Assembly: GCA_947474395.1 (NCBI GenBank)
Contig: CANJID010000020.1
Span: 1 to 55,697 of the forward strand
Reading direction: 5' to 3'
Source: Caulobacterales bacterium
Lineage (GTDB): Bacteria; Pseudomonadota; Alphaproteobacteria; Caulobacterales; Caulobacteraceae
DNA: 55,697 bases
Below, one piece after another: positions 795-51,841 of the stretch. Below the pieces are notes generated by a model. The model made no database searches. It worked only from the letters and a program-made list of their open reading frames with translations, and was not told the DNA's origin. Every line of letters starts with the position of its first letter. The stretch's first letter is position 1. The position numbers and the translations under genes are program-made.

Positions 795-2162
795 TCAAGA
801 TAGGATGACCGCGGCTTCGGCGCCATGTCCGGCTTCGAGCTTGGCGGGGGATAGGGCGCTTTCCTGCGCGATCAGGCCGCAGGCGGCGGCCAGCCTGCCC
901 CCCGCCAGGGCGCGGATTCGCCCTGCCCCGCTCCCGAGGGGGCCGGGCAGGGCGACGCTGCCGGCGTCGTCGCTCAGCACCGGCAGGGCGGGCCGGAACG
1001 CCGCGGCGATCGCGGTTAGCGCCGCCCTGTCCGTCTTCGACAGCCTTGCCGCGAACCCGGCAAGGGAGCGCAGGGTCAGGCCTGGCGCATCGGCCTGCAC
1101 CTCGAACCGCCCGTCCCAGACCTGCATCCGGCCGGGGTCCAGCGCCCGGGATTCCAGCCCCTTGCGCCCCGCTTCCCGCCCGAACCGCACCGTTTCGCCT
1201 TCTGCCACGACGCGCGAACCCGCCAGGGTGGCGGTCACGGTTTCCTCCGCGGCCAGCCGAGCCAGCAGCCGGTCGAGCGCGACGGTCCTCGGCGGCCGAA
1301 CCCCGCCCGAGGCGCACAGCAGCGCCGCCGCCAGGAACCGCCGCGCGGCCTCGGGATCGGCGTGGACGATCGCCTGGCGGGGAATGGAAATCGATCCGTC
1401 CGGCCCTACGACCGCCTCACCCCCCAAGTCCCGCTCAACCCGGCGAAAGCCGGGCCCCAGGTTTTTTCTGAAACCCGCTCGCTCGCCAAAAAAAACGCCT
1501 GGGTCCCGGCTTTCGCCGGGATGAGCGGTTGAAAGAGCTGTTCTGGCTCGCGCCCTGGCGAACCGCTGATCCTCGTTTGCCGGGTCCTCGAGCCAATCCA
1601 GCTTGCGCGCCTGCAGCCAGCCGCGCAGGGCCCCCCGCGAAATCCCAAGCAAGGGCCGCAGCAGGAACACCCCGCGCCCCTCGGGCCAGGCGGGGGAGGG
1701 GGACCATTCGCGTAAAGTCCCGAGGTCGGGGACATCGGTCGCGCGCATCAGGGCGGCCTCCGCCACGTCGTCGGCGGTGTGGCCGAACAGGACCACGCCT
1801 GCCCCCGCCTCGCGGGCGGCCTCGGCGATCAGGGCGTGGCGGACGGCGCGGGCGGCGGCGGGCAGGCCGGTTGAAGGCTTGGGGCCGTCCCAGGAAAGGC
1901 CGCGCCACTGCGCCCCGGCGGCGCGGGCGGCGTCGGCGGCGAAGCGGGTCCAGTCGGCGCTGTCGGGGTTCAGGCGGTGGTCGAGGGTCAGGGCCAGGAC
2001 GGGCCGGCCGCCCTTGCGGGCCCAGGCGCAGGCGAGGTGCAGGAGGGCGAGGGAGTCTCCACCGCCGGAAAGGGCCAGGGCGAGGGGCGCGGGCGAGGCG
2101 GCGTCCAGACGGCGGTGAAACGCCGCGAAGGCGACCTCCGCGACCGGGTCGGTCAGGCGCAC
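795..2162 (-). CDS. tilS: tRNA(Ile)-lysidine synthase TilS, carrying an in-frame palindromic repeat
   Basis: Converts C34 of tRNA-Ile2 (CAU anticodon) to lysidine with ATP so that the tRNA reads AUA; normally essential. The 455-residue product has the N-type ATP pyrophosphatase loop SGGGDS at residues 32-37 and the typical DHRLNPDS and GHTADD motifs. The start is GTG at 2160-2162, overlapping the end of the upstream ybgF gene by 10 bases, so translational coupling is likely. Residues about 212-244 are encoded by a 98-bp inverted-repeat element and do not look like TilS; the frame continues into a normal-looking C-terminal region beginning near residue 249. In family members this place is usually a helical linker, so the repeat may have replaced native residues. 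Activity of this version is unproven. Confidence 0.9.
   Translation of the reverse strand: MRLTDPVAEVAFAAFHRRLDAASPAPLALALSGGGDSLALLHLACAWARKGGRPVLALTLDHRLNPDSADWTRFAADAARAAGAQWRGLSWDGPKPSTGLPAAARAVRHALIAEAAREAGAGVVLFGHTADDVAEAALMRATDVPDLGTLREWSPSPAWPEGRGVFLLRPLLGISRGALRGWLQARKLDWLEDPANEDQRFARARARTALSTAHPGESRDPGVFFGERAGFRKNLGPGFRRVERDLGGEAVVGPDGSISIPRQAIVHADPEAARRFLAAALLCASGGVRPPRTVALDRLLARLAAEETVTATLAGSRVVAEGETVRFGREAGRKGLESRALDPGRMQVWDGRFEVQADAPGLTLRSLAGFAARLSKTDRAALTAIAAAFRPALPVLSDDAGSVALPGPLGSGAGRIRALAGGRLAAACGLIAQESALSPAKLEAGHGAEAAVILS
1431..1528. repeat. 98-bp palindromic element, family A copy 1 (inside tilS)
   Basis: Two 31-bp arms (1431-1461 and 1498-1528) are inverted repeats matching at 29 of 31 positions, around a 36-base centre. 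The arm core reads CCCGGCGAAAGCCGGG, itself a palindrome. The same 31+36+31 structure recurs at 26175-26272 between genes, with much of the centre conserved. This copy lies inside tilS and is translated. Confidence 0.92.
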
Positions 2163-13069: not shown

Positions 13070-13083
13070 ACATTTTGCATTTT

Positions 13084-13133
13084 AGAGCGCGTCCGGGCGG
13101 CGAAACCGCTCACACTTTCGCCTGACGCGCTCT
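13084..13133. repeat. Palindromic repeat family B, copy 1
   Basis: AGAGCGCGTC (13084-13093) and GACGCGCTCT (13124-13133) are perfect inverted ends; inside are GGCGAAA and TTTCGCC. A core of about 35 bases (CGGCGAAACCGCTCACACTT then TCGCCTGACGCGCTC) recurs exactly at 34361-34395, and in inverse orientation with changes at 29306-29352. Confidence 0.88.
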
Positions 13134-26154: not shown

Positions 26155-26174
26155 TTTTTCGATTCTTTCAAAAC

Positions 26175-26272
26175 CCGCTCACCCCGGCGAAAGCCGGGGC
26201 CCAGGTTTTTTTCTGCAACCCGCTCGCTCTACGATAAAAAGCCTGGGTCCCGGCTTTCGCCGGGATGAGCGG
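26175..26272. repeat. 98-bp palindromic element, family A copy 2 (intergenic)
   Basis: Arms at 26175-26205 and 26242-26272 are inverted repeats of 31 bp around a 36-base centre, the same architecture and length as the copy in tilS (1431-1528). It separates proC from the TetR gene. Either arm can fold as CCCGGCGAAAGCCGGG, and the whole can form one long hairpin. Confidence 0.92.
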
Positions 26273-26890: not shown

Positions 26891-27026
26891 ACTCTGCCCC
26901 CCTGGGGGAAGTGTCCCGAGCTTGCCTCGGGACGACGGGGGCTGAAGGGCGCTGCCGTCGCCCGCGCGTCGCGCGGCCCCCTCAGTCAGGCCGTTCGGCC
27001 TGCCAGCTCCCCCAGAGGGGGCGCAG
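26891..27026. repeat. Repeat family C, copy 1 (about 135 bp)
   Basis: The ends form an inverted repeat (CCCCTGGGGGAAGTG near 26900 and CAGCTCCCCCAGAGGGGG near 27004). Inside are local hairpins GTCCCGAGC/GCCTCGGGAC and AGGCCGTTCGGCCT, and the string GGGGGCTGAAGGGC. Related copies are at 44652-44790 (opposite orientation) and 51699-51834. This copy fills the space between two convergent genes and may act as a bidirectional terminator. Confidence 0.85.
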
Positions 27027-27896
27027 TTACTCCTCCAACCCGCCCGCCATCGCCACCAGTCTCTCCGCCTGGACCAGGTGCAGGTGTTCGGCCATGCGGC
27101 CGCCCACGCGGATGGCGCCCTTGCCCTGGTTGGCGGGGGCGGCGAAGGCCTCGATGACGGCGCGGGCGTCCGCCAGGGCTTCGGGAGAGGGGCTGAAGAC
27201 GCGGTTGCACGGCCCGACCTGGCGGGGGTGGATCACCGTCTTGCCGTCGAAGCCGAAGATCGCCCCCTGCTCACATTCGGCGATGAAGCCCGCCTCGTCC
27301 TCCAGATCGGCGAACACCCCGTCGAGGATCGCGACGCCGTGGGCGCGGGCGGCGGCGACCGAAAGGGCCAGGGCGGGGGCGAAGGCCTCGCGGGCGGGGG
27401 TCAGCCGGGCGCCGGTCTCCTTGGCGAGGTCGTTCAGGCCCATGACCATGCAGGAAAGGCGCGAGGTGCGGGCCGCAGCCCCGATGCCGTCAAGGTGGAA
27501 CAGGCAGCGGGCGGTCTCGATCATCACCCACAGGCGCGTCGTGGCGGGGGCGTGGGACAAACGGGAATCGTAGCGGGCCACGTCTCCGGCGTCGGTGATC
27601 TTGGGGGCCAGCACCGCGTCCGGCCCGGCCTCGGCCATGGCCTTCAGGTCGGCCTCGCCGTAGGGGGTGTCGAGGCCGTTAACCCGCACCACCAGCTCGC
27701 GGCGGCCGAACCCGCCGGCCTTGACCGCGGCGACGGCGGCCTCGCGGGCGGCGGCCTTGGCCTCGGGAGCGACCGAGTCCTCCAGGTCGATGATCACCGC
27801 GTCGCAGGCGAGCGCTCGGGCTTTCTCCAGCGCGCGCGCGTTGGCGGCGGGCAGGTAGAGGGCGCTGCGGCGGGGGCGGAACGGGGTCTCGGTCAC
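27027..27896 (-). CDS. HpcH/HpaI aldolase / citrate lyase beta-like CoA ester lyase
   Basis: A 289-residue CitE-like protein: RRSALYLPAANARALEKA at the start, catalytic-region motifs VIIDLEDSVAPEAK (metal-binding acid), LWVMIETA and the C-terminal FGFDGKTVIHPRQV. Family members cleave malyl-CoA, beta-methylmalyl-CoA or citramalyl-CoA. The substrate cannot be read from sequence, and no citrate lyase alpha or gamma subunits are nearby, which favours a stand-alone CoA-ester lyase or thioesterase. Confidence 0.9.
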   Translation of the reverse strand: MTETPFRPRRSALYLPAANARALEKARALACDAVIIDLEDSVAPEAKAAAREAAVAAVKAGGFGRRELVVRVNGLDTPYGEADLKAMAEAGPDAVLAPKITDAGDVARYDSRLSHAPATTRLWVMIETARCLFHLDGIGAAARTSRLSCMVMGLNDLAKETGARLTPAREAFAPALALSVAAARAHGVAILDGVFADLEDEAGFIAECEQGAIFGFDGKTVIHPRQVGPCNRVFSPSPEALADARAVIEAFAAPANQGKGAIRVGGRMAEHLHLVQAERLVAMAGGLEE

Positions 27897-28563: not shown

Positions 28564-29307
28564 ATGAGCGACTATAATCGCAGCGGCGTACGCTCGATCC
28601 CAGCCGGCCGCGCCGACGTGGCGGTCGACGCCGGGCTGCGCACGTTCATGCTCGGCGTCTACAACAAGCTGGCGGCGGGCCTGATCCTGTCGGCGGCGCT
28701 CTCCTGGCTGACCAGCCACGAGCCGGTCATCAACTACCTGTTCAAGGTCACTCCGGACGGCCGCTTCGCCGGCTACACCGTCGCCGGGATGATCGTCAGC
28801 TTCGCCCCCCTGGCGCTGGTGCTGTTCGGCGCCTTCAGCAAGGTGTCGCCGCGCAGCTCGGGGGTCATCTACTGGGGCGTGGTGTCGGCCATCGGCGCTT
28901 CGATGGGCGCGATCCTGCTGGTCTATACGGGCGCCTCGGTGGCCTCGACCTTCTTCGCCACGGCGGCGGCCTTCGGCGGCCTGAGCCTGGTGGGCTACAC
29001 CACCAAGAAGGACCTGAGCGGCTTCGGCTCGTTCCTGATCGTCGGGCTGATCGGCCTGGTGATCGCTTCCCTGGTGAACATGTTCCTGCACTCCTCGGCC
29101 ATGCAGTTCATCATCAGCGCCATCGGCGTGCTGATCTTCGCCGGCCTGATCGCCTACGACACCCAGCGGCTGAAAATGACCTACTACCAGCTCGGCGGGG
29201 ACCAGGCGGCCATGGGCGTGGCCACCAACATGGGCGCGCTCAACCTCTACCTCGACTTCATCAACCTGTTCCGCTTCCTGCTCTACTTCATGGGCAACCG
29301 CCGCTAG
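28564..29307 (+). CDS. Bax inhibitor-1/YccA family membrane protein
   Basis: A 247-residue protein with seven predicted membrane helices from residue about 35 to the C-terminus and the BI-1 motif FAGLIAYDTQRLK in the sixth/seventh helix region. Bacterial homologues (YccA, YetJ) are pH-sensitive calcium leak channels or modulators of FtsH; ftsH in this window is far away, so no link is implied. The TAG stop overlaps repeat B copy 2, and a strong terminator follows at 29395. Confidence 0.93.
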   Translation: MSDYNRSGVRSIPAGRADVAVDAGLRTFMLGVYNKLAAGLILSAALSWLTSHEPVINYLFKVTPDGRFAGYTVAGMIVSFAPLALVLFGAFSKVSPRSSGVIYWGVVSAIGASMGAILLVYTGASVASTFFATAAAFGGLSLVGYTTKKDLSGFGSFLIVGLIGLVIASLVNMFLHSSAMQFIISAIGVLIFAGLIAYDTQRLKMTYYQLGGDQAAMGVATNMGALNLYLDFINLFRFLLYFMGNRR

Positions 29308-29352
29308 AGCGCGTTAGGCGAAAGTGTGAGCGGTTTCGCCGCTCGCACGCGC
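29306..29352. repeat. Palindromic repeat family B, copy 2
   Basis: Begins inside the TAG stop of the Bax-inhibitor gene: AGAGCGCGTTAGGCGAAAGT followed by GTGAGCGGTTTCGCCG, the inverse of the core at 13084-13133 and 34361-34395. The right end is degenerate (CTCGCACGCGC). Confidence 0.8.
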
Positions 29353-29394
29353 GCCAAGGCGTAAAGTCGGCAGGCGAACAGCCAGAGATAGAAG

Positions 29395-32920: not shown

Positions 32921-34360
32921 CAGAAGGCGGCGCTTAATGAGAAGACCACGCTGCGCCCCGGCGCCGGGACGCCCCGGTTGCCGAACACCTGGCTGTAGTT
33001 CAGCCGATCGGTCAGGTTGTTGGCGTTGAGCGCCAGCCGGACGTTGCGGACGCGGTACTCCACCAGGGCGTCCACCGAGTAGCTCTCCGGGGCCTGGGCG
33101 ATCTTGGAGGCGACCAGGGTGGAGCGGGCGGCGTAGGAGGACGAGACCGCCGTGTAGCCCAGGTAGACGCGGCTCTGGTAGCTCACGCCCCCGCCGACGG
33201 AGAGGCCTGGAACGACCGCCTTCAGATCGTAGGTGGTCCAGAACGAGGCGGAGTGCTTGGGCGTGAAGGTCACCTGCCGGCCGACCGCCACGGTGTTGAG
33301 CACCGGGATCGCCGCCGTGACGCCGACCGCGCAGACCACATTGGTCGGGGCCCCAGTGGGGCTGGCCGCCGGCACGGTGCAGTTGGAGAAGGACTCGCGG
33401 ATCTCCGCGTCGATGTAGGCGTAGGCGGCGTTGACGCTCCAGGCGCGGGTGATCCGCCCCGTGGCGCCGAGTTCTACCCCGCGGATGCGCTGGCGCTCGC
33501 CCGACTGGGCCTGGATGAAGCCGGTCGAGGGATCGGTCTGCAGGGCGTTGTCCTTCTTCACCTGAAAGATCGAGCCGGTGAGGCCGAGCCGCCCCTGCGC
33601 TACGGAGACCTTGGCCCCCGCCTCCCAGGTCTGGTTGACCTCGGGCTCCAGGTCCTTGGTGGCCACAGCAAGCGCCGTGGCCGAGGCGACGGCCCCCGTG
33701 CCCTGCGGGTTGGCCGAGCGGCCCCACGAGGCGTACCAGGTCTGGCTCTCGTTCGGCTCATAGACCAGGCTGACCCGCGGATTGGTCAGGTCGGACTTGG
33801 ACTTGAGGGTCGCTGAGGCCGCCGCGACGGTCACGCTGTCGTATTGCACCCGGTACTTGTCGAGGCGCAGCGAACCGATGACCGACCAGGCCTGGCTGAG
33901 CCAGAGGCGGTCGGTGAAGAAGACGCCGTCGTCCGTGCTCTCGGCGGCGGTCGTGACCACGCTGGTCAGGGTCGCGGTCGTGTTGGCGATGTTGGCCGGC
34001 GTCGGGGCGAACACCCGGTAGCCGGCGGGCATGCGCGCGTCGGGGGTGATCAGGTTGCGCGGGATCAGGTTGCGGGCCGTGATCCCGGTCGGCAGGGTGT
34101 AGAAGAAGAAGGTCTTGTCGTTGGACTGGTACGACAGGTCCACCCCCGCGATCAGCCGGTTCCGCAAACCTCCGACGGGCGCGTCGATGCGCACCGTCGA
34201 GATGTTCTGCGCGCCCCAGGCGTCGGTGTCGTAGGGGCCGCCGCCGCCCATGGCCCCGAAGGGGATGGTGGCCGGATTGTTGTCGAACAGGGCCGTGGTG
34301 CAGGCCGCGCCGCAATTGTCGGTGTTGCTGTACTGGAAGTAGCGCGAATAGACGCCCAGG
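32920..34360 (-). pseudogene. TonB-dependent receptor, 3' part only (beta-barrel), truncated at a repeat
   Basis: The reading frame codes for the barrel and ends with a normal outer-membrane terminus (VVFSLSAAF). It opens with receptor-like sequence (GVYSRYFQYSNTDNCG) from 34360, but signal peptide, plug domain and early barrel strands are missing: about 480 residues remain, where siderophore receptors have 700-800. The receptor sequence stops exactly where repeat B copy 3 begins (34361); beyond it lie a terminator and DUF1328. An internal ATG at 34251 could start a 443-residue protein, but it would have no signal peptide. Likely an iron-siderophore receptor remnant, given piuC. Confidence 0.8.
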
Positions 34361-34395
34361 CGGCGAAACCGCTCACACTTTCGCCTGACGCGCTC
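34361..34395. repeat. Palindromic repeat family B, copy 3 (partial), at the receptor break
   Basis: Contains the 35-base core CGGCGAAACCGCTCACACTT then TCGCCTGACGCGCTC, identical to the right-hand part of the copy at 13084-13133. Its left edge coincides with the loss of receptor-like coding sequence. Confidence 0.88.
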
Positions 34396-43063: not shown

Positions 43064-43825
43064 TCACCGGCAGAAGCGGTCCGGCCCCATGTCCAGGTGA
43101 AGGTGCGCGGCGTGGGCGCGATTGTACTGGGGCGACAGGGTGGTGTGGAAAATCTGGCAGGCCCCGCCGTAGACCGTGTGGACGAAGGCGGACTCAGCTC
43201 CGTTGCCCTTCCAGCTCTTCTCGATCGACAGGGTGCGCCCGTCGGCCAGGCGGAAACCGGCCACGTCGATGGCGTCGGCGCGGGAGTGGGCGCTAGGGGC
43301 GATGGCGGCCTCGCTGCGCATGCGCCGGCAGGTGTAGGTCCCCACATGGTCGAGCCCCACGGCCTCGGTCCCCAGGATGCGCCGCGCCGCCGGGACCACC
43401 GACTGCCGCTCCCACAGGACGAAGGCGGCGGCCATCGGACAGCTCATCAGGGGATTGGGGGTCTGCAGGGTCAGGTCCGCGTCGCCGAGGCGCACCGGAT
43501 TGGCCACCACGCAATAGTCCTGCTCGTCCTGGTAGGGCAGGGGACGGAAGGCGACGCCGTTGTCCGCCAGGAACGCGAGGCAGGTGGTCGGGTTGGCGGT
43601 GGCCTGCTCGAGCTTGTAGGCGGTGGCGAGGCCGATCGGGTCCGACAGCCGCAGGGGCTTCCAGGGCAGGTCCTGGGCCGGGGCGTAGGCGTTGACCGCG
43701 CCGAACAGCAGCATGACCCCGAAGAAGAGATCGAGCAGGACGTCCAGGCGCATGAGCGTCGACGCCCACAGCCGGCGCAGGAGCCGGCGGGCCAAGCTGA
43801 GGACCTGTTCCACCCGCTCGTGCAT
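43064..43825 (-). CDS. Extensin-like C-terminal domain protein (copy 1)
   Basis: A 253-residue protein with one N-terminal membrane helix (about 28-46) and a periplasmic extensin-like domain with four to six Cys. It has [12 protein letters not shown] and [13 protein letters not shown], the HxxxxxxD and HxH pattern of LAS-type metallopeptidases that cut peptidoglycan peptides; enzyme activity has not been shown for the family as far as I know. The adjacent upstream gene (43889) is a paralogue with the same layout. Confidence 0.87.
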
Positions 43826-43888: not shown

Positions 43889-44590
43889 TCAGCGGCAGAG
43901 GCTGTAGGGGCTGAGGTCGAGGTGCAGGTGGTTGTGGTGGGCCGCGTTGTAGTCGGGGGAGAGCACCGCCCCGAAGAGGCCGCAGCCTCCGTCCCGCACC
44001 CGGCGCAGGAAGGCCGCCTCGGGCCCGCCCTTGTTCCAGCCTTCCAGGACCGTGACGCGCCGCCCATCGGCGAGGCGGAAGGCGGCGATGTCGACGGCGG
44101 CCCCGCGGGCGTGCTCGCTCGGCCTGGCGCCGGGTTGGCCGTAGAGGGTGCGGCAGGAATAGGCCCCGAAATGCTCGACGCGGGCCAGGTCCGAGCCCAG
44201 CAACTCGCGCGCGGCAGGTTCGACCACCTGGCGCTCCCAAAGGGCGTAGCGGGCGGCGAGGGCGCAATCCATCACGGGCGGGGTGGAGAGGCGGGCCGCC
44301 CCGTCGCGAAGCTGCACCGCCCCGTCCAGTACGCAGAACCCTTGCGTCCTGTCGGCCACGGGGGAGAAGGCGATGCGGTTCTGCGCCAGGAAGGTCCGGC
44401 AGGTCCCCGGCTCATCCAACGCCCGGTCCAGCTTCCAGCGCGTCGCCAGCCCGACCGGCTGGTCCAGATTCAGGGGCTTCCACGGGACGTGCTGGGCCGG
44501 GACGTAGGCGTTCAGCACGCCGATCAGCAGCACGGCGGATGTCGCCGCCGTCAGCACCCCGGCGAGGAACTCCGCGAGGGGGCGGCTCAT
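43889..44590 (-). CDS. Extensin-like C-terminal domain protein (copy 2)
   Basis: A 233-residue paralogue of the neighbouring protein: N-terminal membrane helix (about 8-28), the shared YVPAQHVPWKPLNLDQPVGLA region, HARGAAVDIAAF and NHLHLDLSPYSLC. The start chosen is the ATG at 44588-44590; an ATG at 44635 would add 15 residues ahead of the helix. The two copies are 63 bases apart and clearly arose by tandem duplication, now well diverged. Confidence 0.86.
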   Translation of the reverse strand: MSRPLAEFLAGVLTAATSAVLLIGVLNAYVPAQHVPWKPLNLDQPVGLATRWKLDRALDEPGTCRTFLAQNRIAFSPVADRTQGFCVLDGAVQLRDGAARLSTPPVMDCALAARYALWERQVVEPAARELLGSDLARVEHFGAYSCRTLYGQPGARPSEHARGAAVDIAAFRLADGRRVTVLEGWNKGGPEAAFLRRVRDGGCGLFGAVLSPDYNAAHHNHLHLDLSPYSLCR

Positions 44591-44651
44591 GTGGATAGGC
44601 GACTTCACAGGAGGAGAACGGGTGAGCGCGGCCAAGGTTCGGCGGCGTAGT

Positions 44652-44790
44652 CGCTCCCCGTTTGGGGGAGCTGTCAGGCCGAACGGCCTGACAGAAGGGG
44701 CTCATGGGCGCGACGGCGAGGGGACAGCGCCCTTCAGCCCCTATCGTCGGCCCGTTCGGGCCGACACTTTCCCCAGAGGGGAAAGGACTG
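44652..44790. repeat. Repeat family C, copy 2 (reverse orientation)
   Basis: Read in reverse it shares with the copies at 26891 and 51699 the order: CCCCTCTGGGGAAAGTG, a variable hairpin, GGGGCTGAAGGGC, then AGGCCGTTCGGCCT and CAGCTCCCCC. It separates the extensin-like genes from the prephenate dehydrogenase gene. Confidence 0.82.
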
Positions 44791-51698: not shown

Positions 51699-51834
51699 AC
51701 TCTTCCCCTCTGGGGGAAGTGTCGTCGCGAACGCGGCGACGAAGGGGGCTGAAGGGCATTGACGTAAACCGCGCGCCGCGCGGCCCCCTCAGTCGCCCCG
51801 TTCGGGGTGCCAGCTCCCCCAAGAGGGGAGCAGT
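51699..51834. repeat. Repeat family C, copy 3
   Basis: Starts with TTCCCCTCTGGGGGAAGTG, contains GTCGCCGCG-type hairpins and GGGGGCTGAAGGGCATTGAC, then CCCCGTTCGGGGTGCCAGCT and CCCCCAAGAGGGGAG. Same order and orientation as the copy at 26891. It fills the gap between the convergent ChaC-like and asnB genes. Confidence 0.85.
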
Positions 51835-51841
51835 TTGGCGG

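Follow-up and report, generated by a model that had tools for sequence, protein, structure and literature searches.

A REP-like palindrome in the reading frame of TilS, and different palindromes in the same linker of related Caulobacteraceae

The palindromic element within tilS

The window analysed here is the whole stretch of 55,697 nucleotides from a Caulobacterales bacterium (contig CANJID010000020.1). The tilS gene, listed with a GTG start, is located at positions 795–2162 on the minus strand, and the open reading frame list and profile matches assign it to tRNA(Ile)-lysidine synthetase of 455 residues. The protein matches NCBIfam TIGR02432 with 115 bits (cut-off 93.6) and PF01171 with 108 bits. 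TilS is normally an essential enzyme. According to the alignment of 141 distinct TilS sequences of the family, the interdomain linker corresponds to residues 208–281 (positions 1320–1541, minus strand). A 98-bp palindromic element lies in this linker at positions 1431–1528, and codes for residues 212–244 (TAHPGESRDPG...GFRRVER). The earlier note had placed a 98-bp palindrome entirely within the tilS frame, and our analysis agrees, as the frame is open throughout. The repeat search detected two inverted arms (1431–1467 and 1492–1528) of 37 nt each, which are 89% complementary and separated by 24 nt; the 31-bp arms and 36-base centre described previously are the same object. The length of 98 is indivisible by three, and the element together with base 1529 makes up 33 codons. 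The RNA of the element folds at −71.9 kcal/mol, against a mean of −38.9 for 200 shuffles (z −9.2).

The structure model of TilS has a mean pLDDT of 90.5, and residues 221–234 fall below 50. The best structural matches are 2e89, 2e21, 1ni5, 1wy5 and 3a2k (Z 20.8–23.6), which include TilS of Aquifex and E. coli and the 3a2k TilS. A helix is predicted at residues 237–249 (positions 1416–1454, minus strand), and the first eight of its 13 residues are encoded by the repeat. The mean pLDDT is 94 for residues 241–250 and 56 for residues 231–240. In the TilS model of Caulobacter sp. SLTY, residues 222–264 are under 50. In the best reading of these models, the repeat peptide would be a disordered spacer, a few residues of which are recruited into the flanking helix. 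As the predicted helix uses repeat-encoded residues, the insert may not be a pure spacer. The third-position G+C of tilS is 0.87 on one side of the element and 0.86 on the other, and the conserved TilS motifs are intact. The possible second tilS copy, raised previously, was not found: the genome gave one TilS match, and the seven other matches were short and overlapped copies of the repeat.

A second copy of the element is present in the window at positions 26174–26272 (91% identity). Several copies of another palindromic repeat family are located at 26931–27041, 44636–44783 and 51703–51835. A third repeat type, AGAGCGCGT(T/C)AGGCGAAAGTGTGAGCGGTTTCGCCGC, occurs at three places of the window (13082–13133, 29306–29357 and 34360–34395). 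In addition, a pair of direct repeats of 182 nt, 70% identical and 819 bases apart, was observed at 43532–43713 and 44351–44532.

Copies of the element in the genome

The genome consists of 103 contigs (3.58 Mb) and is rated 99.65% complete. The element was found at about 40 places, and the nearest copy is 93% identical to that in tilS. The 75 match rows, counted on both strands, were merged by hand into 40 places, three of which are clearly partial. In the copy alignment, the similarity between copies stops at the two ends that had been proposed for the element in the earlier note. The consensus consists of two inverted units, each CCGCTCA(T/C)CCCGGCGAAAGCCGGG(A/G)CCCAGG, with a variable spacer between them. 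The right arm contains the stem-loop ATCCCGGC-GAAA-GCCGGGA(C), whose outermost pair is often mismatched; the stem of 8–9 bp and the loop of 4–5 bases are those of CGTC REPs. CCCAGG follows the stem in most copies, and corresponds to the short unpaired CCA tail of CGTC REPs. Apart from the three partial places, most of the 40 copies are head-to-head dimers with the tails inward, and in tilS, likewise, the GCTC tags are located outside and the CCCAGG tails inside. The terminal tag of CGTC REPs is CGTC, with variants TGTC and CCTC, whereas the consensus here starts with CCGCTCA and has the tag GCTC. Because of this tag, the element is named CGTC-like and is not filed as a member of the CGTC REPs.

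No RAYT/TnpA-REP gene was detected by PF01797 in this genome (zero matches), whereas 5 of 14 control genomes were matched. The missing PF01797 Y1 transposase agrees with the CGTC REPs, which have no dedicated transposase in the description of PMC3733652. Mobilization by a RAYT of this genome was thus rejected, RAYT being the only type sought. A known RNA family was also rejected, since eight loci gave no Rfam match at the gathering score. No target-site duplication was evident by eye next to the copies, and an exact empty site is lacking for this genome.

According to the test of open frame and third-position G+C, 3 of the 40 copies are clearly intragenic and 37 are outside clear genes, some of them, near gene ends, being ambiguous. 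The intragenic copies are those of tilS, addB and a fused MFS/spermidine-synthase gene, and HPGESRDPG opens the insert reading in all three. The copy in addB (L021:1501–1606, contig C17) is in frame and codes for SAHPGESRDPG; the host gene matches TIGR02786 with 950 bits. The copy in the fused gene (L002:1501–1599, contig C90) is also in frame. At the AddB site, taken as a control, the HPGESRDPG-type peptide was found in 0 of 29 relatives, in which the linkers are shorter and variable. AddB was thus rejected as an equally recurrent site.

The TilS linker in Caulobacteraceae

TilS sequences were gathered from 199 family genomes, of which 196 gave a match, and from 80 named loci. In total 167 TilS loci were read, including 60 family genomes and 29 loci from the family search. 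The shared loci bear the names Caulobacter, Brevundimonas and Phenylobacterium, which identifies the family as Caulobacteraceae. After 26 duplicate rows were removed, 141 distinct sequences were obtained; L086, L140 and L143 were left out, as the motif pattern had no match in them, and the comparison over the order was made without L249, L256 and L266. The linker following the DPANxDxRFARARAR motif is hypervariable (41–95 residues in the 141 sequences). The peptide HPGESRDPG occurs in only one of the 141 linkers; the alignment with related TilS, which had been proposed as a check of strain specificity, thus indicates a lineage-specific insert.

The helical linker expected in TilS had been described as seemingly missing here, as if owing to the insert. 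This is not supported by the family comparison. The median fraction of Pro and Gly in the first 35 linker residues is 0.23 in Caulobacteraceae (121 linkers with no repeat evidence), versus 0.09 in the other families of the order (n = 22), where the sequence is amphipathic and looks helical (Mann–Whitney 7.5e-13, uncorrected for relatedness). Since Caulobacteraceae generally lack the helical stretch and other families keep it, the repeat of this genome did not remove the helix. As judged from these sequences, the lack of the helix characterizes the whole family and predates the repeat. Besides the element, the linker of this genome keeps 41 residues, which equals the family minimum, and the linkers of near relatives in the tree total 51–95 residues. 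There is no close tilS with an empty site, because the genus comprises this genome alone.

The linkers of relatives were searched against their own genomes, each query being the linker flanked on either side by about 300 bp of tilS sequence, which served as an internal control. The row counts are lower bounds, and include both strands and partial matches. Caulobacter sp. SLTY (G181) gave at least 48 extra rows at query 320–505, within the linker at 301–567. G046 (at least 73 rows, query 301–511), G190 (at least 69, query 315–442) and Brevundimonas sp. H1_MAG_00001 (G185; at least 18, query 306–470) showed extra rows in the linker only, among the matches listed. G115 gave at least 58 extra rows, at 308–430 in the linker and at 619–697, the latter being a second repeat in the same tilS. 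The elements of G181, G046, G190, G185 and G115 are about 139, 197, 103, 154 and 108 bp, respectively. G126 (L064) was nearly negative: one other place with 72% identity was present among the matches listed, and its sequence is not clearly multi-copy. Among six elements (A–F), the CGTC-like A, B and D resemble each other to a limited extent, and C, E and F have TTCTCCC/GGGAGAA-type arms in common but differ in full sequence. The elements of G181 and G190 have TGTC-type ends.

The second repeat-derived stretch of G115 (L067) lies between REPGEARR and VVWDGR, about 340 bases past the linker start, and is multi-copy in that genome. By inspection, similar peptides are present between these motifs in L148, L152, L153 and L155.

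The linkers were also compared with 1.67 Mb of pooled flanking DNA, using upstream and downstream segments of equal length as controls. At E ≤ 1e-6, 19 of the 141 linkers match non-tilS DNA, against none of the 141 upstream and none of the 141 downstream segments. At E ≤ 1e-5 the numbers are 28 linkers versus 2 and 4 control segments (of 141 each), and E ≤ 1e-3 separates poorly (58, 32 and 52 of 141 for linker, upstream and downstream). One positive, the 45-residue linker of L177, may be fortuitous. In the in-gene test, 17 of the 19 tilS linkers pass and 0 of 45 flanking repeat places do, which compares places and not rates, because the queries were picked for lying in tilS. The inverted-repeat test at p ≤ 0.005 gave 10 linkers, 2 upstream and 0 downstream segments (104/106 linkers, near-duplicates kept).

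A quick tree was calculated from 139 TilS rows with the linker excluded (L114 and L195 were dropped as short), with SH-aLRT values as the only branch support. The repeats are scattered over this tree. L049, with the 197-bp element, is the sister of L130, which has a repeat-free linker of 44 residues (support 96), and L052, with the 139-bp element, is the next row beside them (support 99). The sisters L043 and L067 carry different elements (support 98). Counting this genome and the Brevundimonas-type clade, the sequences point to at least six insertions. As a wider result, this one linker has been filled by selfish-looking DNA on several separate occasions.

When the element is subtracted, 43 residues are left in L052 and 41 in this genome, both within the native range; 33 are left in L043, and 24, 21 and 23 in L049, L054 and L067, against the native minimum of 41. 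These remainders thus point to partial replacement as well as to clean insertion. Apart from the 108-bp element, none has a length divisible by three, so that in most entries the frame must have been restored by a compensating change. The alignments of sister linkers yielded no base-exact insertion points.

Among eight Brevundimonas-type sequences, the repeat part has a pN/pS of 0.95, versus 0.23 and 0.41 for the domains, and its pS is lower (0.13 versus 0.41 and 0.34). The constraint on the peptide is weak in this one old clade. The low pS is not predicted for a pure passenger, and may reflect homogenization among copies or constraint at the nucleotide level. The inverted-repeat score of the tilS copy is 25 in G181, versus 36–64 in ten other copies examined, and 30 in G185, versus 37–55 in ten others. 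As both score below each of the ten sister copies, the pairing is decaying within the gene, and selection maintaining the hairpin was rejected. The folding energies of these two tilS copies are less extreme, being lower than most but not all. The tilS copy of this genome ranks 16th of 40 as an inverted repeat. The decay in the two older cases speaks for passengers that are tolerated rather than for a hairpin kept by selection.

Origin of the insert and comparison with known repeats

We consider it very probable that an ancestral loss of the helix made the linker tolerant, and that REP-like elements were then repeatedly inserted as near-neutral passengers. The linker of Caulobacteraceae would first have lost its helical stretch, and become a short, Pro/Gly-rich connector tolerant of sequence change. 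A copy of the REP-like dimer, of which this genome has about 40, would then have lodged in the segment that joins the catalytic N-terminal domain of TilS to its C-terminal domain. Copies that keep the frame may persist as near-neutral passengers, presumably also in this genome, and in other lineages at least five further palindromic elements have separately entered the same permissive linker. We infer this order of events.

The insert might instead have been recruited for a function, the hairpin slowing translation between the domains or the longer linker tuning tRNA binding. The occurrence of several palindromes, unrelated to each other, at a single domain boundary, the low synonymous divergence of the repeat part in one clade and the strong hairpin predicted in tilS of this genome are consistent with such a role. 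However, the pN/pS near 1 in the repeat part, the inverted-repeat scores of the G181 and G185 copies below those of ten other copies, and the 122 of 141 sampled relatives with no repeat detected at E ≤ 1e-6 argue against it, and we regard recruitment as unlikely. Target-directed insertion, in which a mobile system prefers a DNA site in the linker and the recurrence reflects targeting and not tolerance, seems distinctly unlikely: two sequence types (CGTC-like and TTCTCCC/GGGAGAA-like) do share the linker, but unrelated elements would need a shared target, the sister-linker alignments show no conservation of the linker DNA, and most other copies in this genome (37 of 40) are outside clear genes.

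It is most improbable that tilS is an inactive or decaying gene and the insert a mark of it. An insert within a normally essential enzyme is unusual, but the 455 codons are open, the third-position G+C and the motifs are preserved, the fold is confidently predicted, and no other TilS is present in the nearly complete genome; TilS is thus probably working. A bolder form of the history, in which the linker is a standing evolutionary port where palindromes have been captured, decay and are replaced after the helix loss, so that the connector is largely former mobile DNA whose hairpins or length are at times useful, appears rather unlikely. One linker of a normally essential enzyme, entered separately by at least six different elements, offers an experiment replicated by nature. 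Comparing sister species that carry different repeats, or none, makes it possible to measure the passage of mobile DNA into protein, the rate of hairpin loss and the tolerant sites of proteins.

Palindromes in frame are known mainly as scattered events over many genes, in Rickettsia and as REPs in several species. What appears new, as judged from the sequences compared, is the breadth: within one family, at least six elements have entered a single linker that had presumably lost a conserved segment before. We found no report of recurrent palindromes in the TilS linker in the open-licence literature; the intragenic-REP supplement of PMC3733652 may contain a TilS entry.

The Caulobacter CIR repeats, as described in PMC2229807, are about 110 bp with an inverted organization, occur in Caulobacter and relatives, carry GANTC and stops in all frames, and do not lie in genes. 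The tilS element is similar in size and inverted organization, but was rejected as a CIR repeat, since positions 1431–1528 contain no GANTC site and three of the six frames are open. The CGTC REPs of alphaproteobacteria, according to the main text of Di Nocera (2013, PMC3733652), have a short GC-rich stem, a GAAA loop, a CCA-type tail, head-to-head dimers and intragenic members, and lack a transposase gene. The tilS element is alike in all these features; it differs in the tag (GCTC in CCGCTCA, instead of CGTC, TGTC or CCTC) and in the host, Caulobacteraceae, the word Caulobacter being absent from that main text. The same paper describes different REPs at about the same recB site in two Xanthomonas species, and its author suggests that linkers or loops tolerate REPs, whereas here at least six different elements occupy one linker. 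Rickettsia palindromic elements (see also PMC2229807) are about 100–150 bp and lie in frame in conserved protein genes, and Gmk with such an insert is reported to be active with altered substrate affinity. The earlier note had drawn this analogy, and it is apt, as the repeat has joined TilS, and likewise AddB, in frame. Host and sequence differ, the Rickettsia elements being compared by description only. In Rickettsia, as far as described, the same families are found across many genes, whereas here many families are found in one gene.
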